Source: a virus
Virus record (IMG/VR): IMGVR_UViG_3300010401_000086
Span: 1-21,033 of that record
DNA length: 21,033 nt
Strand: one strand, 5' to 3'
Each line of letters begins with the position of its first letter. The stretch's first letter is position 1. The position numbers and the translations under genes are program-made. Shown piece by piece: positions 2,726-19,550 of the stretch. The notes under the pieces were generated by a model. The model was not told where the DNA came from, did not search any database, and saw only the letters and a program-made list of their open reading frames with translations.

Positions 2726-3025
2726 ATGATCGACCTCATCACCATCCCGCGCTTCTGCACATTGACCGGTTACACGGACGATGCGGTGCGCATGAAGATG
2801 GCGAGCGGGGTCTGGCTTGAGGACTCCGTATGGATCAAAGCACCCGACAACCGTATCCTGATCAGCATACGGGGGTTCGAAACATGGGCCGCGGGCCAGG
2901 CGTCCGAGTCGTCAACGGTGCGATCCAGATTGACTTCCGCTGGCGAGGCGAGCGAAGGCGTGAGCGACTTCGCCTCGCACCGACGAAAGCGAACCTCAAA
3001 TACGCCGCCCGACTCAAGGCGATAG
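2726..3025 (+). CDS. Xis-like excisionase (recombination directionality factor)
   Basis: From the ATG at 2726 the product begins IDLITIPRFCTLTGYTDDAV and continues GVWLEDSVWIKAPDNRILI, then IRGFETWAAG. This is the pattern of small phage excisionases (DUF1233-like): an N-terminal helix-turn-helix, a GxW..xxxWxxAPD wing, and a final helix ending in W. Such proteins bend DNA at the attachment site and turn integrase towards excision. The recognisable domain ends near residue 60; the remaining 40 residues are low-complexity and overlap int by 142 bases in another frame, so the tail may be a weakly constrained by-product. Directly upstream of int, as expected. Confidence 0.72.
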   Translation: MIDLITIPRFCTLTGYTDDAVRMKMASGVWLEDSVWIKAPDNRILISIRGFETWAAGQASESSTVRSRLTSAGEASEGVSDFASHRRKRTSNTPPDSRR

Positions 3026-3981
3026 TCGAGCACGAAATCACCATCGGAACATTCGACTACGCGACGCACTTCCCACGAAGTGTGCGCGTTCGCCATCGGG
3101 TTACTGTCGGCACACCCCTGAATATCTCACTGCTCGCCTATGTTGATTCGCTCGCTTCCGAGCTCGAACCCGAGACCCTGAAGAAGTATCGCTTTGATGC
3201 AGAGACGGTGGCGGGTTGGTTTGAGCCAGGCGAGACCCTGAAGACGCTGACGCGCCCGAAGGTGCGAGACGCCATTGCGAAACTCGACCTGTCGAAGAAG
3301 CGCATTCTGAACCTGCTCACGCCGCTGCGCGGTGCCGTGACTCGAGCGGCAGACGACGGCGATCTGCCAAGCAACCCGCTCGCGAAGCTCACCATTCGTA
3401 GACTGCGCAAGCCAGATCGGGACAAGCCGCGACCGTTCACCCCCGCCGAAGTGGATGCCCTGGCGCGGACCCTGCTCGGGGACCTATGGCTTGCTTGGGC
3501 GTGGATCGGGCTGAGTCCGGGCGAGGTGATCGGGCTCGAGAAGCGGGATGTGGACCTCGATGGAGCGAGGCTGCGCGTTGAGCGCGCCGTACGCGTTGGC
3601 CGCGAGAAGGCGCCTAAGACGGTTGCGCGAGCTCGCACAATCTCGCTGCTTCCGCCCGCGATCGCCGCCCTGCGCCGGCTCATGCCGGAGAACGAGGGCC
3701 CCATGTTCAGAAACCCGAACACGGGCGAGCGCTGGCATGAGGATCGGGGGTTAGCACGTGCCTTCCGGATCGCCTGCAAGGCTGCTGGCGTGCCCTACCG
3801 GCCGCCCAAGCATCTAAGGCACACCTTCGCCTCGTGGGCGCTCAGCTCGGGCGAGAACCCGCTATGGGTCGCCAAGCAGATGGGCCATGAGGACACCACG
3901 ATGATCTTCAAAGTCTACGGGGAGTGGATTCCGAGCGTCGATCCGCTCGCCGGCCAACGCATGATTGCGAAGGCCGGATGA
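2884..3981 (+). CDS. int: Tyrosine-recombinase integrase with DUF3596 arm-binding domain
   Basis: The 365-residue protein starts MGRGPGVRVVNGAIQIDF, the standard beginning of the DUF3596 arm-type DNA-binding domain (GxxxRERL, PTKANLKYAARL, GTFDYATHFP). This supports the ATG at 2884, with a GGGGG stretch 8 bases upstream, over the in-frame ATG at 2830. A core-binding SAM-like domain follows, then the catalytic domain. Visible catalytic residues are Lys in the beta-hairpin (APKTVARART), the HLRHTFAS box with Arg, GH in KQMGHED, and Tyr in KVYGEWIP. Box I reads WIGLSPGEVIGL, where the family normally has GLRxxE, so the first catalytic Arg appears to be Ser (codon AGT). Reads towards the adjacent attachment region. 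Confidence 0.93.
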   Translation: MGRGPGVRVVNGAIQIDFRWRGERRRERLRLAPTKANLKYAARLKAIVEHEITIGTFDYATHFPRSVRVRHRVTVGTPLNISLLAYVDSLASELEPETLKKYRFDAETVAGWFEPGETLKTLTRPKVRDAIAKLDLSKKRILNLLTPLRGAVTRAADDGDLPSNPLAKLTIRRLRKPDRDKPRPFTPAEVDALARTLLGDLWLAWAWIGLSPGEVIGLEKRDVDLDGARLRVERAVRVGREKAPKTVARARTISLLPPAIAALRRLMPENEGPMFRNPNTGERWHEDRGLARAFRIACKAAGVPYRPPKHLRHTFASWALSSGENPLWVAKQMGHEDTTMIFKVYGEWIPSVDPLAGQRMIAKAG

Positions 3982-5336: not shown

Positions 5337-5855
5337 CTAAACCAAAGTCTGAAATGGGTGGTACTTGCTTTTGGCAGAAAGATACGCCGCTGAAGCTTCC
5401 TCTGGAGTTTGGAAGACGCCCAAAAACTTGTATTTCCCATTTACCTTTATTGTCGCCTTCCATTTATCTCCAAGTGGAGTGGACAGACATACCCCAAGGA
5501 ACCCGCTCTTATTGCTAGCTTTGGGCGTGCGAAGATTCTGGCCGTTTTGAGATTGTGTGGCTGGCCTGAGATTGCTGAGCCAATTGTGAGACCTGATCGT
5601 ATCCTTGTGATCAATGCCATGGGCAGGGAAGCTCCCATGCGTATATAGCCATGCAAGACGGTGGGCGCGGTACTGAACGCCATCAACGCCGATCAGGATG
5701 TATCCTGAATCCTTTTCGAGACTGCCAGCGACCGTACCAGCCTTATAGCGCCCTCTATAACCTGTGGCAATACGACGGGTAAAGACCCCAGTTTCCGGAT
5801 CGTACTGCAAAAGTTCTTTGAGACGCGCCTGAGTTAATTCAGGCGGAAGGTTCAT
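5337..5855 (-). CDS. HNH homing-type endonuclease with C-terminal AP2 domain
   Basis: The ATG at 5853-5855 has a GGAGG site 7 bases upstream, so it is preferred over the in-frame TTG at 5861. The 172-residue protein has a N-terminal region with YDPETGVFTRR, then an HNH_3-type core: YRAHRLAWLYTHG, IDHKDTIRSHNWLSNLRPAT and a following QNGQN. Residues about 115-165 match an AP2/ERF DNA-binding fold (KSGFLGVCLS, WKATIKVNGKYKFLGVFQTPEEASAAY). Such proteins are free-standing mobile nucleases common in phages. Local base composition is visibly lower in G+C than the flanks (42% over 5401-5460), suggesting separate acquisition. It lies just downstream of the spanin genes without disrupting them. Confidence 0.88.
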   Translation of the reverse strand: MNLPPELTQARLKELLQYDPETGVFTRRIATGYRGRYKAGTVAGSLEKDSGYILIGVDGVQYRAHRLAWLYTHGSFPAHGIDHKDTIRSHNWLSNLRPATQSQNGQNLRTPKASNKSGFLGVCLSTPLGDKWKATIKVNGKYKFLGVFQTPEEASAAYLSAKSKYHPFQTLV

Positions 5856-5884
5856 GGGCAATCCTCCGGGTTACGGTAGAAACG

Positions 5885-6376
5885 CTACAGCTGCGGACTC
5901 AGTTCCGAGATCAGGGCTTCGGTGTTGGCGACAACTCCACGGCATTCGGTGACTGCGTCTGCAAGAAGTCCAGCAAAGCGTCCATCGCTTTGTGCTCTGG
6001 GGGCTTCAGGAGCTGCGGGTCGATCGTCGGCTTTGGGCAGGTCATGAGAACCGGGAGCGGGTCGGGTCGCGGCGGCGAACAGCCTGCGCAGGCGATCCCG
6101 ATCAGCAGCAATGGCAGTAGTCTGGTTCGTGAGGTCATTGAGCGTCACCTGATTTGCAAGGGTGGTCTTGTGCGCCTGTTCGACCTGTAGCTCTAGGGCC
6201 TCACGTGCTGCATTCTGAGCTTTCAGGGCGGTTTCCGTAGCTTGGGTGCGATAGTCGGCGAAGGTGAGCTCCAACGCTGCGTAGCGCTTGCCGTCGAGCG
6301 TATGAGCCGAGAATGCGCCGAGACTTCCGAACAGCACAGCACCGGCCAGGTACGGCCAGAGTTTGAGCCAGATCAT
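5885..6376 (-). CDS. Rz: Inner-membrane spanin (Rz-like)
   Basis: The 163-residue protein has one N-terminal membrane segment (residues about 5-25, LWPYLAGAVLFGSLGAFSA) and a long charged, Ala/Gln/Thr-rich helical periplasmic domain, the layout of i-spanin Rz. Spanins join inner and outer membranes and fuse them in the last step of lysis. A complete Rz1-like lipoprotein gene lies inside it in another frame, which strongly supports the call. The start overlaps the stop of the 34-residue protein by ATGA (6373-6376). The C-terminal segment has a single Cys (VTECRGVV) that could form a disulfide; this is inference. Confidence 0.85.
   Translation of the reverse strand: MIWLKLWPYLAGAVLFGSLGAFSAHTLDGKRYAALELTFADYRTQATETALKAQNAAREALELQVEQAHKTTLANQVTLNDLTNQTTAIAADRDRLRRLFAAATRPAPGSHDLPKADDRPAAPEAPRAQSDGRFAGLLADAVTECRGVVANTEALISELSPQL
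5911..6138 (-). CDS. Rz1: Outer-membrane spanin lipoprotein (Rz1-like), nested in Rz
   Basis: A 75-residue protein lies wholly inside the Rz coding region in a different frame. It has basic residues (TSRTR), a hydrophobic stretch (LLPLLLIGIACAGC) ending in a lipobox, and a proline-rich body (SPPRPDPLPVL, PSP and PTPKP). The modified Cys could be the one in CAGC or the one in GIAC; neither is a perfect consensus. Rz1 o-spanins are small proline-rich outer-membrane lipoproteins that pair with Rz, and nested Rz1 genes are known from lambda. Confidence 0.85.
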   Translation of the reverse strand: MTSRTRLLPLLLIGIACAGCSPPRPDPLPVLMTCPKPTIDPQLLKPPEHKAMDALLDFLQTQSPNAVELSPTPKP

Positions 6377-6477: not shown

Positions 6478-6797
6478 GGCGTCACCACCGGCGGTGCCAC
6501 GACGGTCGAGGATGTCGTGGTCGTGCTGCTGGTACTCACAGGCGTATTCCACGATTGACCGGCATCGCTGTAAGTCTGGTACACAAGCTTGAGGAACCCG
6601 AGTACCGCGACGAATACGATAGACCCAAAACCCGTCGCCTCAAGGCTGCGATCCTCTTTCGAGAGCGTGGTGTACCAGTGCACAAGCACCATGGAGAGCC
6701 AGACCGACCATATGAAACAGGCGATAAGGAACGAGCGCGGGAAGATGCGGAAGCGGTCAATCGCCTCTGCCCACTTCAGGATGAGATCGCGGTTCAT
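6474..6797 (-). CDS. Two-segment membrane protein, candidate holin (107 aa)
   Basis: Starts MNRDLILKWAEAID at 6797 in an ATGA overlap with the upstream DUF5675 gene (6794-6797), which argues against the longer version from 6839. Two hydrophobic segments are visible, residues about 22-40 (FLIACFIWSVWLSMVLV) and 55-70 (GFGSIVFVAVLGFLKLVY), followed by a disordered tail rich in Thr and Ser. The size, topology and position next to spanins fit a holin, but no holin family motif is recognised. A Ser/Thr tail is unusual for a holin. Confidence 0.65.
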   Translation of the reverse strand: MNRDLILKWAEAIDRFRIFPRSFLIACFIWSVWLSMVLVHWYTTLSKEDRSLEATGFGSIVFVAVLGFLKLVYQTYSDAGQSWNTPVSTSSTTTTSSTVVAPPVVTP

Positions 6798-7237
6798 GCG
6801 GCACTCTGGATGGAGAATATGTGCGTGCCGTCTTCCCATGGCAGCATTGCGTAGAATCGATTGATGGCGAGTCGTGATCTGCCGATAGTATCCGCCTCAT
6901 CGTAACGGTCCATGCCGAGCGCGATGCAGCCGCGCAATTCGATGGTCTGATTCGCTACGTGTATGAGACATGCCGTCCGACCTTGCTTTCCTGCGGGCAC
7001 AGCATAGTGATAGACGCCGAGAGCTTCGTTCACGAGCGCGAAGGATCTCGGATGCGCTTCTGTGTCGTGTTTCTCCAGACGGTACGTGCCGACAGGGATG
7101 CATGAGCGTCCGGGTGTGCCGCCAATTGGACCGGGGAGCCAGGGGCGCTCCAGCGTCTGAAACAACTGCTCTGCGACCCGTATCGTGCCGAGCGTGCAGA
7201 CCCCATCGTCCTTGTCGCGCGTCAGGAAAAGGTTCAT
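6794..7237 (-). CDS. DUF5675 family protein, copy 1 (147 aa)
   Basis: The protein starts MNLFLTRDKDDGVCTLGTI, then LFQTLERPW, IPVGTYRLEKH, YHYAVPAG and ACLIHVANQTIELRGCIALG. This is the DUF5675 pattern: TLG, TLE(R/D), (I/C)P.G.Y.., and a terminal H-x-(G/A)N....GCIxxG. The H and GC residues resemble the HxG and GCIR motifs of L,D-transpeptidase-like folds, so a cell-wall role is possible but unproven. The start is set by the ATGA overlap with the preceding gene (7234-7237) and a GAGGCA site. It lies upstream of the spanins where an endolysin is expected. A divergent second copy is at 9667-10149. Confidence 0.85.
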   Translation of the reverse strand: MNLFLTRDKDDGVCTLGTIRVAEQLFQTLERPWLPGPIGGTPGRSCIPVGTYRLEKHDTEAHPRSFALVNEALGVYHYAVPAGKQGRTACLIHVANQTIELRGCIALGMDRYDEADTIGRSRLAINRFYAMLPWEDGTHIFSIQSAA

Positions 7238-7560
7238 GCGTGCCTCAGCAGAAACTGCACGACCGCGCCTGCAGCGATGAGCGCACCGCCCCACGTAGCC
7301 AGTTTCATGTTCACACTTGTCAAGCGCTTTTCCATGTCAGCCTTGTAGACATCGAATGCGAGGCGTTGGGTTTCTACGAAATCATCGAACTTCTCGCGGG
7401 TTACGGACTGGTCGGCCGCAGTCTTGAGTCGCGCCGCTTCGCCGTTCAGATTTTCAAGCCTCCACTCCAGATATTTTGTGCGCACCTTGAGGGCGGCGCG
7501 TTCGCCACGCCAGCGTTCCTCGAGCACGGCGAGGCGCACATCGTATGACTTCTTCCCCAT
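7234..7560 (-). CDS. Coiled-coil protein with C-terminal membrane anchor (108 aa)
   Basis: Residues 1-80 are charged and helical (LAVLEERWRGERAALKVRT and LENLNGEAARLKTAADQ), predicted coiled coil. Residues about 86-106 form one hydrophobic segment (LATWGGALIAAGAVVQFLL) and the protein ends RHA. The layout recalls haemolysin XhlA-like phage membrane accessory proteins, but I cannot confirm that family. Its stop overlaps the start of DUF5675 copy 1 by ATGA. A lysis-control or envelope role is inference from position. Confidence 0.65.
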   Translation of the reverse strand: MGKKSYDVRLAVLEERWRGERAALKVRTKYLEWRLENLNGEAARLKTAADQSVTREKFDDFVETQRLAFDVYKADMEKRLTSVNMKLATWGGALIAAGAVVQFLLRHA

Positions 7561-9085: not shown

Positions 9086-9670
9086 TCATGCCGTCAACCG
9101 CTTGAACTGAAGCGCAAAGTCACATCTGGGCAAACGTGTGTCGTGCGGATCGATGCCCGTTGCGTCTTCCGGTTTGAACTTCCATCCGATCCAGCAGCGC
9201 CGGCTTTTCGTTTCATACCTGAATCCGCTGTAGATGCCCTGCCAGACAAAGTACCAGCCGCCCTCGCCATCCTGCATCTCGTGATCGAGGCCGATCGAGT
9301 AGATGCGAGCAGGTCGAAACTTCGGACTCAGCACCGGCACATAGCGGAGATTGTTCACCGGATTACGGAAGGCTGACCAAGCGAAAATTCGCTTGGCATC
9401 CGGCCAGTCCCCGGTTTTGTTCATCCACCAGGCTTGCGCCGCATCGCCGCCGCGAAGGCCATCGATGCCGTCTTCCTCGTTTGACCATAGGAACGCCCAC
9501 CACGGGAACTGGAGCAATGCCCGGCCGGAACCTGAGGTTCGTACGCGATACGAGCCCATGCAGACGAGGAGCGGAATGACGATGAAGCCCAGAAGAGCAA
9601 GCGGCAGAAAGATCGCAATCCGCAGGAGCCAGACCGGCAGTGAGAACAGGATGCGCAGAGCGAGGTTCAA
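9086..9670 (-). CDS. Membrane-anchored phage protein, DUF7338-like (194 aa), TTG start
   Basis: The frame begins at TTG (9668-9670), overlapping the previous stop as TTGA, with AGGAGG 9 bases upstream in the end of the DUF5675 gene. The N-terminus is strongly hydrophobic (residues about 5-37, LRILFSLPVWLLRIAIFLPL and LLGFIVIPLLVCMG), probably one or two membrane segments. A Trp-rich domain follows: WWAFLWSNEEDGIDGLRGG, WAFSAFRNPVNNLRYV-like residues and GWYFVWQGIYSGFRYE. I recall this pattern from a phage family of unknown function (DUF7338, name unverified). It lies between the two DUF5675-containing parts of the lysis region. Confidence 0.7.
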   Translation of the reverse strand: MNLALRILFSLPVWLLRIAIFLPLALLGFIVIPLLVCMGSYRVRTSGSGRALLQFPWWAFLWSNEEDGIDGLRGGDAAQAWWMNKTGDWPDAKRIFAWSAFRNPVNNLRYVPVLSPKFRPARIYSIGLDHEMQDGEGGWYFVWQGIYSGFRYETKSRRCWIGWKFKPEDATGIDPHDTRLPRCDFALQFKRLTA

Positions 9671-10149
9671 CCCGTAGCGCCTCCTGAATCCTCAATCACC
9701 AGCTGAAGATCGAAGGTTGAGCCAAGAATGGTGCGGACTTGATTCATCGCATCAAGGGAGCGCTCCAGCTTCCATCCGAGTTTCGTCTTCACGCGCTCAG
9801 TGCCGACCCCAATGCTATCGATCGCCTCGAAGGCGTAATTCGCCGCGCGAATCGTGACCCGCGAACGACATGCCCCATTGCGGCTCTTGGGCACCTCGTA
9901 GGGCATCTGGAAGACATCCAGAGCGCTATTCGAGACGATGTAAACGCGCTCCCCGGAAGGCAGCTTGTGCGGCTCCAGCCGGAATACTCCGGCAGGCAGG
10001 CAGGAAATAAAGGGTGCCCCGGCTTTGCCGCCATGGGCGTTTGGCACGAAGGGCTTCTCAATCGTGTAGAGCTTGTGGGAATCGCCTATCGTGAGCGTTC
10101 CCAGCACGCAATCAGGCGCGACGGTGTCCCGTTTCAGGGTCAGCATCAT
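9667..10149 (-). CDS. Divergent DUF5675 family protein, copy 2 (160 aa)
   Basis: The protein starts MMLTLKRDTVAPDCVLGTLT and aligns with copy 1 along its length: LYTIEKPF against LFQTLERPW, CLPAGVFRLEPH against CIPVGTYRLEKH, and YEVPKSRNGAC against YAVPAGKQGRTAC. At the terminal motif it reads VTIRAANYAFEAIDSIGVG where copy 1 has LIHVANQTIELRGCIALG, so the conserved His is Arg and the Cys is Ser. If those residues are catalytic, this copy is inactive and may be structural or regulatory. It has a further 40-residue C-terminal helix-strand unit. The stop overlaps the TTG start of the next gene. Confidence 0.75.
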   Translation of the reverse strand: MMLTLKRDTVAPDCVLGTLTIGDSHKLYTIEKPFVPNAHGGKAGAPFISCLPAGVFRLEPHKLPSGERVYIVSNSALDVFQMPYEVPKSRNGACRSRVTIRAANYAFEAIDSIGVGTERVKTKLGWKLERSLDAMNQVRTILGSTFDLQLVIEDSGGATG

Positions 10150-10536: not shown

Positions 10537-12489
10537 TCACAGCCGGATGAACTCGGTCCGCAGCGTCACCTGATCAAGGGTGAAACTGTTCGCGCCTGAG
10601 GCGACATCCCACAGCAGCGCCACGTAGGAGCTGTTGCCGGCGGTATATGAGAACACGCCCGTCTGGGTGACCGGCTGCATGGCAGTGGTGCTGCCGCCTA
10701 CTGGGATCTTGCCGGCGTTGTCGTAGACGCTCGTGACGCCCGTGACAAAGCGAATCATGACGTTCTGAAAGCCGTTGATGTTCTGGAGGCCCTGACGATA
10801 GCCTGCGGTCACACTCACGGCGGCGTTCGCAGAAGTGGGCGAGAAATCCATGCGCGCGATCTCGCCCGCATGAAGCGCTCCAGCGCCGCTGAAGACCTGA
10901 GTCGCTGTGCAGTTGACCTGCGTGACGGTCGAGAAATATGCCTGTGAGGCAAGGCCTAGCGTGTTCGGCGAGTAAGCACTGAAATACGTACTCACGTACG
11001 CGCGCGAGAAATACCACAGCGGCAGCGCCGGCATCGGCAAGGAGACCTGCTGCGAGAGTCCGTCATAAACGACTGAGCCGACAGAGGCATCCGTCGAGAC
11101 CGCAGAAGCGATGATCTGATACGACGTTCCGATCGGCTTCACAACCGGCGTTGCGAGGCTGAAGGTGATCGTGCCGTTGATGGTGTTCACGATCGAAAGC
11201 ACAGGGACATCCGGAGTCGTCGGATTCGTTCCCGGGACTGGTGAGGTACTGGGCGCGTTGTACTCTGCCGCCAGAAGGTCATCCCAGTCCGCCGATTGCT
11301 CCTCCACGACTCCGACATCCACCGAGCCGTCGGGATTCAGGTTCATCGTACGAATCCGCATCAGCTTCGAGACCCAGCCGAGCTCCTCAAAGTTGATGGC
11401 CACTACTTCACCAGTTGCGAGTTTGCGAAAACGCGGCGGCAGGCGGCCTGATAAGGCAATCTGATTGCGTGACTGCCTTAGCAGCAGTTCAGCTTTTCGC
11501 TGCGCCTCGTACTCGTTGTCGCAGCCCGGCTGCTCCATCTCGAGCGCGATCTCTTCGGCTCCGTCCGCGCTCTTGTAGGTGGCGTTCCGCCGTGGAAAGC
11601 ACTCAACCCGCTGCCAGTTTCGGGAGGCATCCACGTACCAGCACCGGACGGTATTCCAGCGGCCCCCGTCCCTTGGAGCCACGGTCTTGATGCGATCGAT
11701 CGAGAGCCAGTCCACCTTTTCGATGGTGTAGCTCGCCGCTTCCCATGCGCCGGCATAGATATACCAGGCGCCGTTGCGGCGAATCATGCGGCCCATCATG
11801 GCGTCGATGAAGAGCTTCGCGTTCTCGCGCCAGTCAGGATCCACCGGCAGAACGATGCGACCATTGAACGTGTAGCGCTTCTGCGTCGTCGACCCCGGAA
11901 TGTTCACCAAGGCATCACAGATGCCCTGTGCCGTCACCACAGAGGCCCAGTTGATCGCGGTCGAGGGGACAGCCCCACCGTAGTCCGCCATCGCGTAGTC
12001 CGCCCAGATCAGGGCAGGATTGTTCGTATAAGCGGCAAAGGTTGGATTGGTCGGAGCGGCACCGGGAGAGCTATCGAGGGTCGGGTCGTAGCACTTCTTG
12101 CCCTTGATGGTGAAGGTCATCAGGGGGATGCCGTTGTAGAGCTTGCCGTCGCCCCAATCGAAGGTGAGTGCGGCATAGGCCGTACCGCGCCCCCGAAAGT
12201 CCGACGTGAACACCGTCGGATAGCGGTTGTTCAGGATGAAATCGACCGTCTGAGATGCGGTGCCGGTCTTCCGACGCACCCACATGGCATTTGCATATTT
12301 GGTCGCGGTCAGCTTGCCGTCGTTGGCCGTTCCAGTGATGGCCGTGATCTGCGCGTTCGTGACCTTCGTGTCGTCAACATACACATCCGTGTAGCTATCG
12401 ACTTCATGGACGCAGAAGGCTAGCACCTGTTCTAGGTATCGTCCTGAACTTCCACCGGAGATCGGCGGAATAACGTTGACGCCGCTCAG
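10537..12489 (-). CDS. Tail tip / host-specificity protein (J-like), probably CTG start
   Basis: The main body (629 residues from GTG at 12424-12426) is a J-like tail-tip protein: YTDVYVDDTKV, FRGRGTAYAALTFDW, a domain with ALIWADYAMADYGG, and an Ig/fibronectin-like region (PDVPVLSIVNTINGTITFSL) before a C-terminal beta-rich domain that probably contacts the receptor. In-frame sequence before that GTG (GVNVIPPISGGSSGRYLEQ) is homologous to the conserved VGGxxV....RYLxxVxAxxxHEVD stretch of J-type proteins, so the start must be further upstream. The best candidate is CTG at 12487-12489, overlapping the previous stop as CTGA, with GGGAGG 11 bases before it, giving 650 residues. The N-terminal domain normally fused here lies in separate small genes at 12956-13464. 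Confidence 0.82.
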   Translation of the reverse strand: MSGVNVIPPISGGSSGRYLEQVLAFCVHEVDSYTDVYVDDTKVTNAQITAITGTANDGKLTATKYANAMWVRRKTGTASQTVDFILNNRYPTVFTSDFRGRGTAYAALTFDWGDGKLYNGIPLMTFTIKGKKCYDPTLDSSPGAAPTNPTFAAYTNNPALIWADYAMADYGGAVPSTAINWASVVTAQGICDALVNIPGSTTQKRYTFNGRIVLPVDPDWRENAKLFIDAMMGRMIRRNGAWYIYAGAWEAASYTIEKVDWLSIDRIKTVAPRDGGRWNTVRCWYVDASRNWQRVECFPRRNATYKSADGAEEIALEMEQPGCDNEYEAQRKAELLLRQSRNQIALSGRLPPRFRKLATGEVVAINFEELGWVSKLMRIRTMNLNPDGSVDVGVVEEQSADWDDLLAAEYNAPSTSPVPGTNPTTPDVPVLSIVNTINGTITFSLATPVVKPIGTSYQIIASAVSTDASVGSVVYDGLSQQVSLPMPALPLWYFSRAYVSTYFSAYSPNTLGLASQAYFSTVTQVNCTATQVFSGAGALHAGEIARMDFSPTSANAAVSVTAGYRQGLQNINGFQNVMIRFVTGVTSVYDNAGKIPVGGSTTAMQPVTQTGVFSYTAGNSSYVALLWDVASGANSFTLDQVTLRTEFIRL

Positions 12490-12959
12490 TGAAGCTGATG
12501 CCTCCCATTGATTGCGGCCACGATCGCCTCGTGGGTCAGGAGATCCACCGGGAATACAACGACGTCATCCCGCACGGGAGGTTGCTGTCTCAGCGTCTGC
12601 ATTTCCTTATGAAGTCTCGCCGACAGTTCAGGATCGAGCGTGCCGGGGGTATCGCTCAGGATCGCGACCACGCGCGCGACGGCCTTATGGAAGTCTGGCC
12701 GATACTTCACCGCAAAGTATTTGCAGGCGAGCCAAAGAATATCGGCGCCATCCGCGACGAGACGTTTGCAGGCGTACTGTTCGGCCGGATCTGGATTCGG
12801 AACCTGCCAGATGCCGAGATCACCCACCCGTATTGGCAATTCGTCCGTGAATGCGAGGGCACGCAGTTCCTGCTCGCAGACACAGTCACCCACCATTGGA
12901 AAGGGCCCGGCAAGGGTCGGTGAATCTGGATCGAAATCTTCATCGAGGGCGATGATCAT
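12486..12959 (-). CDS. Unknown protein between split tail-tip segments (157 aa)
   Basis: The ATG at 12957-12959 overlaps the previous stop as ATGA. The product has an acidic N-terminus (MIIALDEDFDPDSP), a Cys-containing segment (GDCVCEQELRALAF), a helical middle (ADILWLACKYFAVKYRPDFH), and a C-terminal part ending LTHEAIVAAINGRHQLH. No membrane segment, and no family recognised. It lies between the small genes carrying the J-type N-terminal motif and the rest of J, so it could be an accessory tail-tip part or an insertion that split J (inference). Confidence 0.65.
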   Translation of the reverse strand: MIIALDEDFDPDSPTLAGPFPMVGDCVCEQELRALAFTDELPIRVGDLGIWQVPNPDPAEQYACKRLVADGADILWLACKYFAVKYRPDFHKAVARVVAILSDTPGTLDPELSARLHKEMQTLRQQPPVRDDVVVFPVDLLTHEAIVAAINGRHQLH

Positions 12960-13210
12960 GGAATCACGTTCACTCCGCCGACACGAACCGTCCCATAGAT
13001 GGCCCAACCGGGCTGGCCGCCATCGGTGATGGAGACATCGAGCGGTGGCCGGCGCGGCTCAGGTTTGCCATTGATCAGGCGATGGATGGTCTGGTAGCCC
13101 TGCAATTCACGGCCGAACAGCAACTGATCGACGAAAGTGTGTTTCCCTTGGGAAAACCGCACGCTGGCGACAGCGGTCCACAGATAGCCGAGCGCAAAGA
13201 CTACTGGCAT
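12956..13210 (-). CDS. Detached tail-tip N-terminal domain, copy B (84 aa)
   Basis: Starts MPVVFALGYLWTAVASVRFS at 13210, overlapping the upstream gene end by 10 bases. The C-terminal 28 residues (LDVSITDGGQPGWAIYGTV, then RVGGVNVIP) are nearly identical to those of the preceding gene. The IYGxxRVGG motif is a hallmark of the N-terminal part of large J-type tail-tip proteins, where it runs straight into the RYLxxVxA segment. Here the frame stops right after VNVIP and the J gene resumes with GVNVIPP 157 codons later. Length is far below a normal J, so it is either a free subunit or a remnant. Confidence 0.72.
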   Translation of the reverse strand: MPVVFALGYLWTAVASVRFSQGKHTFVDQLLFGRELQGYQTIHRLINGKPEPRRPPLDVSITDGGQPGWAIYGTVRVGGVNVIP

Positions 13211-13464
13211 GGAATCACGCTCATCCCCCCAACGCGCACGGTCCCATAGATGGCGAACCCCGCCTGACCGGTATCCGTGATGGCCACTTCGAGTCCACGC
13301 CCAGCGCCCGTGGGCTTGTTGGCGCCAAGGGATGCCGTAATCTTGTTCAGCGCGTAGAGTTCGGCAGCATAGATCGCCGTGTATGAGAAGGCATAAAGTA
13401 CCGTGCCTTCGGTCGCAATCGAGCTTGCGAAGTAATCCGCGATATAGGCGAAAGCGGTGGACAT
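13201..13464 (-). CDS. Detached tail-tip N-terminal domain, copy A (87 aa)
   Basis: The ATG at 13462-13464 overlaps the previous stop by one base (TGATG). The N-terminal 45 residues are Ala/Tyr/Phe-rich and hydrophobic (FAYIADYFASSIATEGTVLY, then AIYAAELYALNKI), like the N-terminal hydrophobic region of J-type proteins. The C-terminus reads LEVAITDTGQAGFAIYGTV then RVGGMSVIPCQ. It shares this C-terminus with copy B but has a different N-terminus. The DNA at both gene ends carries the same GTGATTCCATG, where ATG is the start of the next gene. Probable tail-tip hub component. Confidence 0.72.
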   Translation of the reverse strand: MSTAFAYIADYFASSIATEGTVLYAFSYTAIYAAELYALNKITASLGANKPTGAGRGLEVAITDTGQAGFAIYGTVRVGGMSVIPCQ

Positions 13465-13922
13465 CAGGCCACTTCCAGAAGCTTCTGTTGCTGGCGGGCA
13501 ATGCCAGTCAGCGTCCAGCCCATGAGCGCATTCTCCATCGAGACCCACGCAAGGCCATGCTGATCGGGTGCCATGAACAGTTCTTCATCGCAGATTCCGA
13601 TAAGGGAAGTTCTCTCGAAGGGAGGCATGGAATGCCCGAGTACCACATCCCCGAATGAGAGCTCGGTGGGGTTCGAGGACGGGCCTAGGTAACGCGTGAT
13701 GAGCGGCTCCCATCCACCAGCCTGTTTGACGATCCGTACGGCGGTAACCGGTTCGTGATAGTCGTAGTCCCGCAGGATGTTGAACTCGAAGCGGGTTCCG
13801 AGTTGAGCATCCACGCACCGCGCTGCGAACAGCACACAATCATGTACCGACCAGACAAAGGGTGTATGCCGGTAGCGTTCGACGATGGGTGACAGTCGTG
13901 CCTGACGCTCTTCGGGAGTCAT
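13464..13922 (-). CDS. DUF6950 protein, NlpC/P60-like tail-associated hydrolase candidate (152 aa)
   Basis: Starts MTPEERQARLSPIVERYRHT at 13922 (ATGA overlap). FVWSVHDCVLFAARCVDAQLG matches the W...DCxxFA active-site region of DUF6950 / NlpC-P60-like proteins, with Cys as the likely nucleophile. The end of the domain, LIGICDEELFMAPDQHGLAW, matches the family's late GxCxxxxxxxxxxGL..AW pattern. Proteins of this type sit between the distal tail and J genes and probably cut peptidoglycan during DNA injection; that role follows from known gene order. The catalytic His cannot be assigned with certainty. Confidence 0.78.
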   Translation of the reverse strand: MTPEERQARLSPIVERYRHTPFVWSVHDCVLFAARCVDAQLGTRFEFNILRDYDYHEPVTAVRIVKQAGGWEPLITRYLGPSSNPTELSFGDVVLGHSMPPFERTSLIGICDEELFMAPDQHGLAWVSMENALMGWTLTGIARQQQKLLEVA

Positions 13923-14548
13923 CTTCCGGGAACCCGTGGAAAATGCGGCACGGTCGGGCGGTTCGGAAAGTTCGCAAAGCTCGTCGCCTGCTGCCCCCAG
14001 AGCGTGTGCTGGGTCGGAATCAGATACATGTAGTCGTAGAAGGTTTCCCCGCTATAGGTCAGCCAGAGCGTTTCCTTGTTGAAGTAGGCTCGCTGGGGGG
14101 TCCGGCGCAATTCCGTTTCGGCTGAAACTTCATAGTAGTTGCCTTTCTCGGAATCGTTGAACCGGATCTCAACCTCATTCACCTTGCCAGACCAGCGCAA
14201 CTCTGGTGTGTTCGAGAGCGCGAAAGTTTCCGGATCGAGGAATGCTTCATAGACCGCGACGGGTCGGTTGAACATGTCCTCGCGCAGAGGTTCATAGAGT
14301 TGTATGGAGTTGACTGCCGCAAGCCATAGACGCAGGCCTCGCGGAAAGGGATCGGACTCTTCCTGAATCGGCTCCAGTCCGCCAAGCACTCCCACGGGCG
14401 TATAGGTATTGCCCATGGCAAAGAGATATCGATAGCCCGTGCAGGCATGGATCGTTCCACTCGTCACGCCCACATCGACGAGCTGGCGAAACATGAGCGT
14501 TTCTGATTCGCTCAGTGCCTGCTGTGAGGTGGAGAGGAAGCGCGTCAC
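13919..14548 (-). CDS. Tail protein, DUF2163-like hub/distal tail component (209 aa)
   Basis: The ATG at 14546-14548 overlaps the previous stop by ATGA. The product is beta-rich: LMFRQLVDVGVTSGTIHACT, YLFAMGNTYTPVGVLGGLEP and LRWSGKVNEVEIRFNDSEKG resemble the opening domain of DUF2163-type tail proteins that form the hub below the tail tube. The position between the carbohydrate-binding tail protein and the DUF6950 gene is the usual one. The C-terminus is Pro-rich (FPNRPTVPHFPRVPGR). No transmembrane segment. Confidence 0.72.
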   Translation of the reverse strand: MTRFLSTSQQALSESETLMFRQLVDVGVTSGTIHACTGYRYLFAMGNTYTPVGVLGGLEPIQEESDPFPRGLRLWLAAVNSIQLYEPLREDMFNRPVAVYEAFLDPETFALSNTPELRWSGKVNEVEIRFNDSEKGNYYEVSAETELRRTPQRAYFNKETLWLTYSGETFYDYMYLIPTQHTLWGQQATSFANFPNRPTVPHFPRVPGR

Positions 14549-16143
14549 GAGTAGACCTCTTCGAGATCCATTTCGATGTCGCCATAGATTCCAAACTGGT
14601 TTTCCAGTTCTTTCTGCTGACCCGAATAGATGAAGCGGCCAAAGGGCTGATTGATGATTACCGGATCATCGTCGGCAGGCGAGTCTCCGAGACTCGGACG
14701 AAATTGCAGATAGCCCAGTCCTGCCGCATCTGAATTCAGTGGAGCCGTCGCCTGCTTTAACTGGTTGGCTGTTTCCATCCAGTCATTTGGCAAGAGCAGT
14801 CCATCGGTACTGGCGGGTAGCCCCTTCACGTACATGGCCCCTCCCGAGGGAGCGCTACCGGCCGTTGCGGCACTCGTTGTGGTCACAGGACGCGTAAAAC
14901 ATGAACTGAGATTCACGTTCGCGCACTCCACGATCAAAGAGCTTGTGCCGTTCCCTGTATAGACCGACGTGCTACCTGAAAGCAGATAGACGAATAGGCG
15001 TATGGCTGAGGAACTGGCAGTCAGATTGACCACGAGCCCGATATAGTAGAACCCGCCACCGAGACTCTGCACTGCGACGCGCAGGTTCGATGCGAATCCC
15101 GCAATGGCTGAACCCAGTACGCTGCCATTGGACAGATCCACATCCACCTGCCCGCTACTGCCGGCGCCGTCATCGATCAGCAGGCGAACGTTGCGAGTTC
15201 CGCTGCCTCTGCTGACAATCGCATGCGCCTGCCAGTCCGCTATGGCGGATGTGCGCGCGATTTGCTGGCTCTTGTTGTGAACTGAATTCGAGCTGTTCTC
15301 CACAATTGTGGATGCGGTCGCAGTACCGAACGCGCCAGTCGTGCCATATGCCGTGGATAGGAGTCCCAGCGGCGACCATGCCGCATTGGTAAGATCGCTG
15401 GAATAGAGCAGTGAATTCGGTCCGAGATCCGCCAGGGCACAGCGAGATATTGAGACATAGGAACAGGAGAAATAGTCCCCTGCCAATCGACCGGAGGCCG
15501 AGGTTCCGCCCGCGATCAGAATAAAGAACGAACCGCCAGAATTCGGTACAAATGCAACGGACACCAATCCCTGGCTGGTGAACTGCTGGGACGCAATATC
15601 ACTTGCCCCACTCGTACTTCCCACCAGGATCTGTGAGCCGGTAGCAAAGCCCTTGCCACCGAGAATCATCGCGCGCACTACATAGGGCGCATACTGCGTC
15701 AGTGTCGTAATCGCAGAACTGTTAACAAACGCCGCTACTGTGGTGCCATTGTTCTGCGTCAGCATGTCACGCAGAACGCGATCCGCAACGGTTAGTGAAC
15801 TGACGCCGCTATATGCGGCCCATCCGGTAGTACCATTTGCGAAGGTTCCGTTCGACAGGATTTCAGAGGTCGCGAAACTCCCGCGCAATGGCGCGTGTGA
15901 CGTGACGAGAATTTTGTTGAACTGTCCGCGCGATTCGTTGAGGCATTGGAGGATGGCTGCCTTCTGATCAGAGCGCAGGCCTCGATAGCGCCGCTTCAAT
16001 CCCCAGCGCGGATCCGCCATCGAGCTCCGCTGAGTCATGCCACGCCCAAATGCGGGCGGGAATGATTGTGTGGCATCATCAATCCAACGAATCGTCTCGG
16101 GCGATTCTGGAAGGACCCAGGGTGGGATCATGACATCGGACAT
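14545..16143 (-). CDS. Tail structural protein with inserted sugar-binding-like modules (532 aa)
   Basis: Starts MSDVMIPPWVLPESPETIRW at 16143, directly after the tape-measure stop (TAAATG). The first 85 residues and the last 60 residues (QFRPSLGDSPADDDPVIINQ to the end) look like one tail-scaffold domain. In between are two beta-sandwich-like stretches: the first begins SEILSNGTFANGTTGWAAYS, the second LLYSSDLTNAAWSPLG. Each opens with the N-G-x-F/L...W pattern typical of carbohydrate-binding modules. The layout suggests receptor-binding domains inserted in a distal-tail protein. The modules are Ser/Gly/Thr-rich. Exact families need a structure comparison. Confidence 0.7.
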   Translation of the reverse strand: MSDVMIPPWVLPESPETIRWIDDATQSFPPAFGRGMTQRSSMADPRWGLKRRYRGLRSDQKAAILQCLNESRGQFNKILVTSHAPLRGSFATSEILSNGTFANGTTGWAAYSGVSSLTVADRVLRDMLTQNNGTTVAAFVNSSAITTLTQYAPYVVRAMILGGKGFATGSQILVGSTSGASDIASQQFTSQGLVSVAFVPNSGGSFFILIAGGTSASGRLAGDYFSCSYVSISRCALADLGPNSLLYSSDLTNAAWSPLGLLSTAYGTTGAFGTATASTIVENSSNSVHNKSQQIARTSAIADWQAHAIVSRGSGTRNVRLLIDDGAGSSGQVDVDLSNGSVLGSAIAGFASNLRVAVQSLGGGFYYIGLVVNLTASSSAIRLFVYLLSGSTSVYTGNGTSSLIVECANVNLSSCFTRPVTTTSAATAGSAPSGGAMYVKGLPASTDGLLLPNDWMETANQLKQATAPLNSDAAGLGYLQFRPSLGDSPADDDPVIINQPFGRFIYSGQQKELENQFGIYGDIEMDLEEVYS

Positions 16144-17994
16144 TTAGCGCAAGTCTCCGAAGCCATTGCTCTTCAGGCGTCGACTGAGCTCGTCTGCCTG
16201 TCGTTTGTTATTTTGCTGAATGCGCACTTCGAGCAGGCCGGCGACTTGCTCCGGCGAGCCCGATCCATTGATGGTGATGTTGGTATCACCCATGTTGATA
16301 TTGGTTCCCGCGCCGCCCATGGCGAAAGCAAGCTGTCTGCGGTTCAGCACCTGCCCCGCGCCGGTCTCAACTTCGGGCCCATCTTCTCCAACCACACGAT
16401 AGCCGCTCATGCTGCCGCCCCCTGCAGCGTGTACGGGAATCCTTGATACGGTCGGAGTCACGGGCTGCAATGAATCAGTTGAACTGCCTCCAAAGGCTCC
16501 GAGAAGAACGTTCGCGATGCTCGCCCATCCGCCAGTGCCACCCGCCGCCTTGGATAGCGAGGTGCCAATGTAGTTGCTGAGTTCATCGATCGCGTTGAAC
16601 AGCGCCTTGCTTTCGAAGGCCGCGAGCAGATTACGCAGGATGGCTTTCCCGCTGAGTTCTCCCTGACGCGCAGCGTTCTGCAGACCTTCGGCAAGCGTAT
16701 CGCTGAACTTCTTCGCGGCATCCTGTGCGGCAGTGAGCGGCACCTTCAGTCGATCCACATTGATCTGCACGGGCTTCAGAGAATCATCAAGATGTTCATT
16801 GAAGCGCTTGTTTGCCTCCTGCGTGAGGGCGTCATTCTGTTGCTGCGCATCGGCGCTAGAGATTTTCCCCTTCCTCACTGCATCCGCTATTTTCTCCTGT
16901 GTGCCCTTGACCATCTCAGTGAGACTCGTCTCAAAGTCGATGAACTCGGCCTGTGCTTTTTCGGAACTGGTGCGGGTCTGCTTTTCCCATTCGATGAGTG
17001 GGTCTTTCAGAAGTGATTCGCCAACGCGCACCATTTCGAGGGATGCCATCAGTTTGTCTGTCGCGCTCGTATCGACTGGGATTGCCAGTGGATTCTTGAC
17101 GGTTTCGGCGTCCTTCTCCATGCGCCGCACAATCTCAAGACCATCGCGCGCGCCCTGAATGCGCGCATCCATCGCTTTCAACAGAGCGTCGAATTGTGCG
17201 GACGGAACCTTGCCGCCGAGATTACTGATCAGCGCCTGCCGCTCATCGATGAGCTTCTGAAGGCTGCGTTCTGCTGAATCGATGTTGTCCACTGGACCGA
17301 CAATCGCTTCCGCGATAGACCCCGCCGCACGCTGACCGAAGGATTCAATCGTCGCCTTCAGAATCTTCAGCGCCTTGTCGGCCTTATCGACCGACTTAAC
17401 CGTCTTCTCGCTGAGGGTGATGCCGAGTTCATCGGCACGATTAGTCATTTGCCGGATGCCATCGGCACCTTGATTAAGCAGCGGCACCAGTTCCTCGCCG
17501 GCCCGCCCAAACAGTTCCACTGCGACTCGCGTCTTGTCAGCCGGATCCTGAATGCGCTGGAACTGATTTGCAATCTTGCCGAGCTGATCTTCGAGTGACA
17601 GACCCTTGAGATCCGCGGCTTTGAGATTGATCAGCGCAAGAGCATCAGATGCCTGCTTGCCACCACTCGCCGCAGAGGACAGCGTGACCTGCCACTTCTT
17701 GACAGAGATCGCCAGCGCTTCGAAATTGACGTTGCTCTGTTCTGCGGCGAACTTCAGTTTCGAGAGTGACTCAACCGCAACGCCGGCCCGGTCCGCGGCT
17801 GTGCCCAGCGCGTTAGCAGATTCGAACCCCTTGACCGCAAGCGCAGAGAATGCGGCCGCGGCCGCTACGGATGCGGTGAGCGCCACTTTGCCGATCGAGG
17901 CGCCCCATTTCTCAATGGCGTGCTCTACGCCCTCGAGCGGGCGCGTGAGTTGATCATTAAGCTTGACGATCAGCTCGACGACATTCTCAGCCAG
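16144..17994 (-). CDS. Tail tape measure protein, probably CTG start (616 aa)
   Basis: The body is a tape measure protein: a hydrophobic segment near the N-terminus (VALTASVAAAAAFSALAV), the conserved ADRAGVAVESLSKLKFAAEQ, RIQDPADKTRVAVELFGRAG, long helical regions (KADKALKILKATIESFGQR) and the usual Gly-rich end (GEDGPEVETGAGQVL). The first GTG (17884-17886) lacks a ribosome-binding site and would drop an in-frame, family-typical opening (ELIVKLNDQLTRPLEGVEHA). The open frame reaches back to CTG at 17992-17994, with AGGAGG 12 bases upstream, overlapping the chaperone stop. With 616 residues at about 0.15 nm each, tail length would be roughly 90 nm (rule-of-thumb inference). Confidence 0.88.
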   Translation of the reverse strand: MAENVVELIVKLNDQLTRPLEGVEHAIEKWGASIGKVALTASVAAAAAFSALAVKGFESANALGTAADRAGVAVESLSKLKFAAEQSNVNFEALAISVKKWQVTLSSAASGGKQASDALALINLKAADLKGLSLEDQLGKIANQFQRIQDPADKTRVAVELFGRAGEELVPLLNQGADGIRQMTNRADELGITLSEKTVKSVDKADKALKILKATIESFGQRAAGSIAEAIVGPVDNIDSAERSLQKLIDERQALISNLGGKVPSAQFDALLKAMDARIQGARDGLEIVRRMEKDAETVKNPLAIPVDTSATDKLMASLEMVRVGESLLKDPLIEWEKQTRTSSEKAQAEFIDFETSLTEMVKGTQEKIADAVRKGKISSADAQQQNDALTQEANKRFNEHLDDSLKPVQINVDRLKVPLTAAQDAAKKFSDTLAEGLQNAARQGELSGKAILRNLLAAFESKALFNAIDELSNYIGTSLSKAAGGTGGWASIANVLLGAFGGSSTDSLQPVTPTVSRIPVHAAGGGSMSGYRVVGEDGPEVETGAGQVLNRRQLAFAMGGAGTNINMGDTNITINGSGSPEQVAGLLEVRIQQNNKRQADELSRRLKSNGFGDLR

Positions 17995-18545: not shown

Positions 18546-19550
18546 CTAGAGATCGATCTGCCGACTGTTGAGTAATGTGAACTGCAAGGCGTAGTTGCTC
18601 GATGGGTCGATGACGCCACGACCGGTGAAGGGAACAGAAACTTCGCCGGGGCCCGGCACCGCAGGCTTGAACGCCGTGATCTTCAGCTGCGGAACATCGA
18701 TGGTGAGCGTGTTGTAGTAGCCCGACTGAACCGCGGCAACCGTCGAGATCAACGTCACCAGCAGGCGTGCCTGGGTCTGGCCGGTAAAGTTGTTCAGCAT
18801 CGAACGGTCGGTCATATAGAACGTGCCGTTGACCGTTACTTCACGGAAGCCGGTACGTGTGTACTTGAAGGGCGTCAGTGTTCCGTTGATCGTATAGAGC
18901 GGCGCGACGTTCTCGTTCAGGCTGACGGTGATGTCGGATGCGGTGAGAAGCGCAGCGCCACCATAGGATATCGAGGCGACATTCCACGGGAACAGCCGGC
19001 CAGCATCGGAGGCATCGGGAATGATGTTCGCGGAACCCACGCCGGTTGCGACGCGGGCTCCGCCGACACACTGAAGTCGACCGCGGGTGAACTGCCCCTG
19101 TGAGATCACGAAGTCCAGTTGCCCGAACTGCATGTCATAGAACAGATCTCCGGACTGGGCATCCGAGAACTGCGAGTACATCGTCCACGGCGCTTTGACG
19201 TTAGACGAGTCGTAGTCGACTGTGTTTGGCAGGAACGTCCAGTTGCGGATCGAGCCGGAGTTGACCGTTGCGGCCACATAGTTCACCGCAAGACCGAGCG
19301 CGGTGAGGATGTTGCGCGGCGTTGCCTCGAATTCGATGGTGCCGTTGACACGGGATGCGCCTGCGTAGGATGCGCCCTGCTCAAACTTGCCGATCAGGCT
19401 CTGGGAGATCAGCTCGTCCGATTCATAGCCGATGTTGTGCGACACGAACCCCATGGCATGGAAGGAGTTCGGGCTCGCGGTTGCGATCACGTAGGACCCT
19501 GGATTGGTCTGTCGGGCAAATCCGACCTTCGCCTGTGCGCCGTAGCTCAT
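18546..19550 (-). CDS. Major tail tube protein (334 aa)
   Basis: Starts MSYGAQAKVGFARQTNPGSY at 19550, after AGGAGG set 13 bases upstream. The product is beta-rich and fits a tail tube protein: FHAMGFVSHNIGYESDELIS, GTIEFEATPRNILTALGLAV, repeated Gly/Ser turns and a C-terminal Ig-like part (PSSNYALQFTLLNSRQIDL). The length is within the range of two-domain tube proteins. Its position between the tail terminator and the chaperone genes matches siphovirus order. It would polymerise around the tape measure to form the tail tube. Confidence 0.82.
   Translation of the reverse strand: MSYGAQAKVGFARQTNPGSYVIATASPNSFHAMGFVSHNIGYESDELISQSLIGKFEQGASYAGASRVNGTIEFEATPRNILTALGLAVNYVAATVNSGSIRNWTFLPNTVDYDSSNVKAPWTMYSQFSDAQSGDLFYDMQFGQLDFVISQGQFTRGRLQCVGGARVATGVGSANIIPDASDAGRLFPWNVASISYGGAALLTASDITVSLNENVAPLYTINGTLTPFKYTRTGFREVTVNGTFYMTDRSMLNNFTGQTQARLLVTLISTVAAVQSGYYNTLTIDVPQLKITAFKPAVPGPGEVSVPFTGRGVIDPSSNYALQFTLLNSRQIDL

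Follow-up and report, generated by a model that had tools for sequence, protein, structure and literature searches.

Two small paralogous tail-tip proteins, probably derived from the N-terminal region of a J-type hub, in an IMG/VR virus fragment

Where is the N-terminal region of the tail-tip hub protein J in the IMG/VR virus record IMGVR_UViG_3300010401_000086, and what are the two small genes, A and B, that lie upstream of J and end in nearly the same residues? The window (the whole stretch of DNA that was analysed) is a virus fragment of 21,033 bases with its tail cluster on the minus strand. Here A, B, a third gene (C) and J are overlapping genes in series: the start of A sits within a TGATG, the ATG of B lies inside the end of A, the ATG of C overlaps the stop of B, and the proposed CTG start of J overlaps the stop of C, with four bases common to J and C. 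A preliminary description of this locus had taken A and B for the N-terminal domain of J, split off, duplicated and separated from J by C; its coordinates for the four genes were confirmed, the extent of J being dependent on the CTG start. With a probability of about 0.7, we hold that A and B are small tail-tip paralogues that come from the N-terminus of a J-type hub and are encoded apart from it, and that J, read from a CTG codon, is the remaining hub.

The hub character of J follows from its matches to PF13550 (Phage-tail_3; E 9e-7), phrog_5616 (9e-62) and phrog_31 (2e-28), and its residues 276-396 match residues 591-710 of T5 pb3 (E 1.3e-5). The match to phrog_5616 begins only at profile position 94, so the front of J is missing; the J-type N-terminal insertion region is not in the J chain, and A and B are separate. 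Relatives of J were drawn from IMG/VR, GTDB genomes, phages and plasmids. At all 29 non-redundant loci outside the group formed by the window and its closest relatives, the frame is open for at least 71 residues upstream of the start of the J-profile match, which in some of them begins well inside J, so that the true front is shorter there. Three loci with no J-profile hit (L021, L046 and L047) are outside the 29, and two repeats (L007 of L006, L042 of L013) were counted once with their originals. The strand motif was seen by eye upstream in these loci, opening with YG in 23 and with FG, LG, IG or VG in 6. A match to J is present in 645 phage and 20 plasmid records; seven annotated regions were viewed, and in 7/7 J is a single gene whose start lies 74-157 codons ahead of the tblastn match. 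The single-chain form supposed by the preliminary description is thus the one found in these relatives.

The separated form is shared by a small group. With J as query, IMG/VR yielded six loci, among them the contigs L003 and L004, whose J is about 80% identical to that of the window in the best segment. All three have the order hub-DUF6950-A-B-C-J, and since L003 and L004 are diverged contigs the layout is a stable one. In a fourth contig (L025) A is present up to the contig end; scans of IMG/VR and of genome_contigs gave no further complete member. In a tree with 25 other J, the three split J group together as a single long-branched clade; the tree is provisionally rooted, at the midpoint only, its support values are not shown, and one of the 25 (L046, again without a J-profile hit) was roughly cut. 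The far end of J is variable, J of L004 (around 6608) falling 114 residues short of the window's J and having a different end.

For a comparison of A and B with the fused fronts, a profile was made from 19 fused J N-termini (6 of 25 loci, namely L034, L035, L037, L043, L044 and L011, were missed by the motif expression, and the rows for L031 and L019 end early). Its target was a set of 409 six-frame segments from the window, L003, L004 and the lambda tail-tip stretch. Ranks 1-10 were occupied by the three J, the lambda gpI frame, the three A and the three B, and A reached E values of 0.00085-0.016 at a search size of 1000. None of the shuffled sequences (500 each of A, B and gpI, of which 422-500 scored) equalled the real profile score. 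Profile-profile alignment with the fused N-termini, made as single comparisons over an aligned part of 30-40 columns, gave E values of 9e-4 for A, 5e-5 for B, 1e-4 for gpI and 0.63 for C, and 0/100 column shuffles attained the score of A or B. Lambda gpI itself matches phrog_31 (‘central tail fiber J’) near the N-terminus (positions 132-276 of 1565, E 3.5e-8). As far as sequence comparison goes, A and B share homology with the N-terminal region that the sampled relatives carry within the J chain, and they correspond to the detached J N-terminus that is a separate insertion (plug) protein in lambda and T1. The split-off and duplicated domain of the preliminary description is in this respect upheld, there being two copies, with a better case for A than for B.

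Several points weigh against this assignment. At the search size of 1000, B had E values of 0.21-0.9, which are not significant, and the weakest B scored 5.5 bits against 5.1 bits for the best unrelated frame. The hhalign probabilities for the fused N-termini are modest (A 22%, B 67%, gpI 58%; C 0.1%), and B resembles them mainly in its tail. Compared directly, A and gpI match weakly (E 0.072 over 11 columns), so that the link of A to gpI runs through the fused forms. The Pfam family Lambda_tail_I (PF06805) is present in lambda gpI and in none of the A and B proteins of the three genomes; the best 19-residue hydrophobicity window is 0.95-1.53 in A and B versus 1.78 in gpI, is at least 1.6 in 15/19 fused N-termini, and is the tail itself in 4/6 of the A and B proteins. 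From the missing family and the lower hydrophobicity, A and B may work like gpI while not being filed in that Pfam family. The structure models of J and C are unusable (predicted local distance difference test, pLDDT, 49 and 50, respectively; L012 was excluded from the structure alignment for an X in its translation), and the sample amounts to three complete loci. The likeness could also be a convergence on a short beta-strand motif, as the short alignments with the fused N-termini and with gpI and the near-noise score of B in L003 would allow. We consider this very unlikely, for A and B occupy the same gene position, and no unrelated frame comes between the first ten of the 409 segments.

Wider searches for A and B were unproductive. 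Among 50,697 phage records B had 11 matches at E ≤10 (best E 2) and A of L004, used as query, had none at E ≤10; a joint A and B profile had 0 matches in 398 Pseudomonadota genomes. In a 398-genome draw from this phylum 21 genomes hold a J relative, so the profile seems blind to fused N-termini and its empty result says little.

The comparison with J is not needed to recognise A and B as paralogues; their own sequences make this clear. Of the last 28 residues 21 are identical in the window, which bears out the near-identity of the two ends given in the preliminary description; the whole proteins are 40% identical (33/82, BLASTP E 2e-15, a single comparison), and the set of A proteins matches the set of B proteins at 98.9% probability in hhalign. 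The SGVNVIP with which A and B end has a third copy where J begins. In every one of the three genomes the tail of A is nearest to that of its own B (21/28, versus 18-19/28 between genomes), a pairing that with three genomes has by our own reckoning a chance of 1 in 6. Within a genome, 9-15 of the 28 codons encode the same residue differently. Identical tail codons number 11 within the window and 12 within L003, versus 5-10 across genomes, and 6 within L004, which is no excess. This co-variation fits a shared binding partner or an old conversion. The closeness of the two tails within a genome is also the sole hint at the interchangeable parts put forward in the preliminary description, which may or may not exist.

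Might only one of the two be a working insertion protein, and the other a relic or an assembly chaperone whose tail was kept by descent? B would be the candidate: it is 33-34% identical between the window and L003 or L004 where A is 66% (C 52-57%, J 72-73%), and its likeness to fused N-termini lies mainly in the tail. The variable first, second and third codon positions, among codons aligned in all three genomes, are 30/25/73 of 86 in A, 48/53/68 of 80 in B and 65/59/115 of 142 in C, so that A and C look clearly constrained as coding sequence and B weakly. B is nevertheless an open frame with an intact tail in 3/3 complete genomes, and this tail tracks that of A within each of them. On balance we judge it rather unlikely that a single copy is at work.

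The junctions between these genes had been described as carrying the same DNA, in keeping with repeated splitting of one gene by insertions. The 11-mer GTGATTCCATG indeed has exactly two copies in the window, at 12957-12967 and 13208-13218, where 0.01 would be expected. It was not found in L003 or L004, in which the same junctions read differently, so the junction DNA is not a conserved site; it is best seen as a by-product of the VIP codons running into an overlapping ATG, with no sign of an insertion site, and an insertion footprint at the junctions was rejected. The insertion origin also lacks other support: Rfam gave no match to an intron or any other family, no mobile gene was found, and C, which matches no family, is itself coding and conserved throughout the three genomes.

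Directly after C the J frame reads SGVNVIPPISGG..RYLEQV, as the preliminary description had it, and the question is where J starts. In the window and L003 no ATG, GTG or TTG exists in the J frame from the upstream stop to the conserved N-terminus; the first standard starts in the two are at codons 22 and 36 (that of the window is codon 22, a GTG). In L004 a TTG precedes the CTG by three codons and stands two bases from the GGAGG. GGAGG-N11-CTGAGCGGCGTCAAC is common to all three genomes and no standard codon fits all three, and so J probably starts at the CTG at 12487-12489. Coding constraint, too, reaches upstream of any standard start in 2/3 genomes: in J codons 6-21 the variable first, second and third positions are 4/1/14 of 16. 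Codons 1-5 (CTG AGC GGC GTC AAC) are invariant over 15 bases; this run counts for less than it seems to, as runs of 17 and 14 bases also occur in the first 1200 bases of J. A search with the J-start DNA pattern gave 16 stretches, with J itself only in the two known contigs. In the 14 others, judged by eye and with their genes only presumed, the place of the CTG is taken by ATG in 9 (5 distinct sequences), TTG in 2, GTG in 2 and CTG in 1. Since the same bases follow an ATG in 9 of 14, the J-start context looks like that of an ordinary start with C replacing A. In E. coli, CUG is described as a poor start codon (PMC11497404). The folding of the RNA at the J start is nothing unusual (z -1.53, -0.06 and 0.33 in the three genomes).

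Two other ways of expressing J were weighed. J might be joined to C in one protein through a -1 frameshift of the ribosome immediately ahead of the C stop: the reading frame of J is -1 to that of C, and the Shine-Dalgarno-like GGAGG stands 11 bases ahead of the CTG in 3/3 genomes. But no slippery heptamer was seen by eye, the codon ahead of the C stop differs per genome (CAC, TCC, AGC), and ahead of the CTG the residues of the J frame show no conservation (EASAS, EASDV, EALVE), which makes the frameshift extremely improbable. Alternatively, the end of B and the start of J might be joined in expression, by ribosome bypass or by RNA splicing over C at GVNVIP, and so yield a single-chain hub as well. 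The missing standard start before the conserved N-terminus of J in 2/3 genomes would agree with this, and so would the GVNVIP repeat, which flanks C in 3/3 genomes and confirms the VNVIP noted earlier at both edges of C. We find such joining barely credible: the gap is occupied by C, a conserved coding gene, and J has its own conserved GGAGG. The gap of about 470 bases is moreover far longer than the bypass of T4 gene 60, which covers about 50 bases. An intron or a bypass was rejected on the absence of an Rfam match and of an unusual RNA fold at the J start. Initiation of J at its own CTG thus remains our reading.

Gene C, whose coding sequence is conserved across the three genomes, belongs to no Pfam family, its PHROG and NCBIfam scores are marginal (best E 0.034), it has no relative in 50,697 phage records, and against solved structures nothing was better than E 0.94; Foldseek with its model, a poor one, gave nothing at E ≤0.001. 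The 398 Pseudomonadota genomes yielded a single match (E 9e-4), in a frame that we take to resemble a nitrogenase-type subunit; this match was taken as chance. An S24/S26 peptidase-like fold, to which GD..GDLG..K had pointed, was rejected, PF00717 being found in C in 0/3 records at E ≤10 while the control genomes gave a match in 14/14 (in 10 of them above the cut-off). From its place and its overlaps, C would most likely be a tail-tip accessory or assembly factor.

How far is this arrangement known from other phages? According to two papers, lambda gpI is in the virion, sits in the lumen beneath the tape measure coil as a trimeric plug, pairs with gpJ by three beta-strand augmentations, and has hydrophobic helices for which membrane entry is proposed (PMC10721106; PMC11101478). 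Like A and B, gpI has a small gene to itself, which in lambda lies between K and J, and it has a C-terminal YGxxRVG strand, a likeness clearer for A than for B. Lambda gpJ seems to begin just past a gpI-type strand, though the match behind this, with E 0.039 among nine proteins searched, is a weak one that stays under the inclusion line. In contrast to the locus studied here, gpI is a single copy of 223 residues with an N-terminal PF06805, where we find two copies of 84-87 residues, and lambda has no annotated gene between I and J in the place of C. T1 gp34 is described as an insertion protein of its own, a trimer beneath the tape measure coil (PMC11945409); by this description it resembles A and B in being separate, but it is one protein of 199 residues and not two. 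T5 shares a baseplate hub, pb3, that matches J, and its plug is reportedly at the gpI place (PMC10721106) but inside a single chain; as a further point against our assignment, PMC11945409 gives T5 no homologue of the insertion protein, versus the equation of gpI with the T5 plug in PMC10721106. Roseobacter phage CRP-831 has a tape measure, two hypothetical proteins (the second matching the hub of the window), DUF6950 and J in similar succession, its J being 27.7% identical to that of the window over 81% of the query. The N-terminal region is there fused to J in one chain, however, and A, B and C are lacking. The preliminary description would have lost ground had related phages commonly carried separate small genes as an old standard layout. 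This is half the case: a separate insertion gene near J does exist in lambda and T1 (PMC10721106; PMC11945409), while the 29 relatives are fused. Tip domains are described as distributed differently among proteins across phages such as lambda, RcGTA and T5 (PMC10721106), and a chain break has been called a focus of hypervariability (PMC13243795). For a doubled insertion or plug protein, or a doubled tail assembly protein I, no report was found in the literature searched, subscription journals being mostly outside its coverage.

The features of the tail cluster are collected in the table. In the Dit-like protein the best match to the distal tail protein family phrog_1302 is at residues 416-530, residues 243-431 match the unassigned family phrog_11600, and the role of most of the protein is unassigned; its counterparts have 528 (L003) and 527 (L004) residues. 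Elsewhere in the window there are an integrase gene (2830-3981), two DUF5675 genes on the minus strand (6794-7249 and 9667-10149) and two HNH-type genes, one on the plus strand (2226-2720, also with a helix-turn-helix domain; its HNH match falls below the family cut-off) and one on the minus strand (5337-5861). On the minus strand, a small open reading frame with a lipoprotein-like start (5911-6138) is nested in another frame within one with a membrane-like start (5885-6376); neither has a Pfam match at E ≤0.01, and the pair resembles embedded Rz/Rz1 spanins.

Table. Features of the tail cluster in the window
Feature	Coordinates	Strand	Remarks
Tail tube protein	18546-19550	minus	
Tape measure	16144-17886	minus	
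Dit-like protein	14545-16143	minus	532 residues
Hub protein, lambda gpL position	13919-14548	minus	phrog_2048, tail protein
DUF6950 protein, lambda gpK position	13464-13922	minus	
Gene A, insertion/plug-like piece 1	13201-13464	minus	87 residues; C-terminal end LEVAITDTGQAGFAIYGTVRVGGMSVIPCQ
A tail	13210-13293	minus	28 residues, LEVAITDTGQAGFAIYGTVRVGGMSVIP
Gene B, insertion/plug-like piece 2	12956-13210	minus	84 residues; paralogue of A with near-identical tail
B tail	12959-13042	minus	28 residues, LDVSITDGGQPGWAIYGTVRVGGVNVIP
Gene C, orphan protein between B and J	12486-12959	minus	157 residues; also in L003 and L004
Proposed J ribosome-binding site and start	12487-12505	minus	GGAGG 12501-12505, 11-base spacer, CTG 12487-12489 over the TGA of C
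Gene J, tail-tip hub/central fibre protein	10537-12489	minus	from the proposed CTG start
J residues 2-9	12463-12486	minus	SGVNVIPP, third copy of the A/B terminal strand

The split itself is of a known kind, and lambda is built on a similar plan. New in detail are the doubled plug-like paralogues, the orphan C before J, the shared overlapping strand and the CTG start of J. In the mechanism that we propose, A and B would derive from the N-terminal insertion (plug) region of a J-type hub and be made apart from J as in the gpI/gpJ split, and J would be the remaining hub, initiated at the CTG with its own GGAGG in a four-base overlap with the end of C. By analogy with gpI, A and B would each augment the J trimer with a beta strand (YGxxRVxGxNVIP), and they may keep the tube lumen shut until the receptor is bound, acting together or as alternatives. 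The overlap of SGVNVIP in A, B and J suggests that J would keep its own edge strand and that A and B would pair beside it. A bolder version, which we offer tentatively and regard as possible rather than probable, is that two different plugs dock on the same kind of J-trimer groove through copies of J's own start strand, giving a mixed or switchable plug, and that the output of J, a hub of which few copies are required, is held down through its conserved CTG start and the coupling of that start to the end of C. For annotation, a search limited to ATG, GTG and TTG would start J at the wrong codon. For the biology of the tail tip, the locus would show a plug region that has been doubled as well as detached, with an overlapping copy of the joining strand on all three proteins, and it would offer a natural system for plug function in which one copy can be removed while the other stays.

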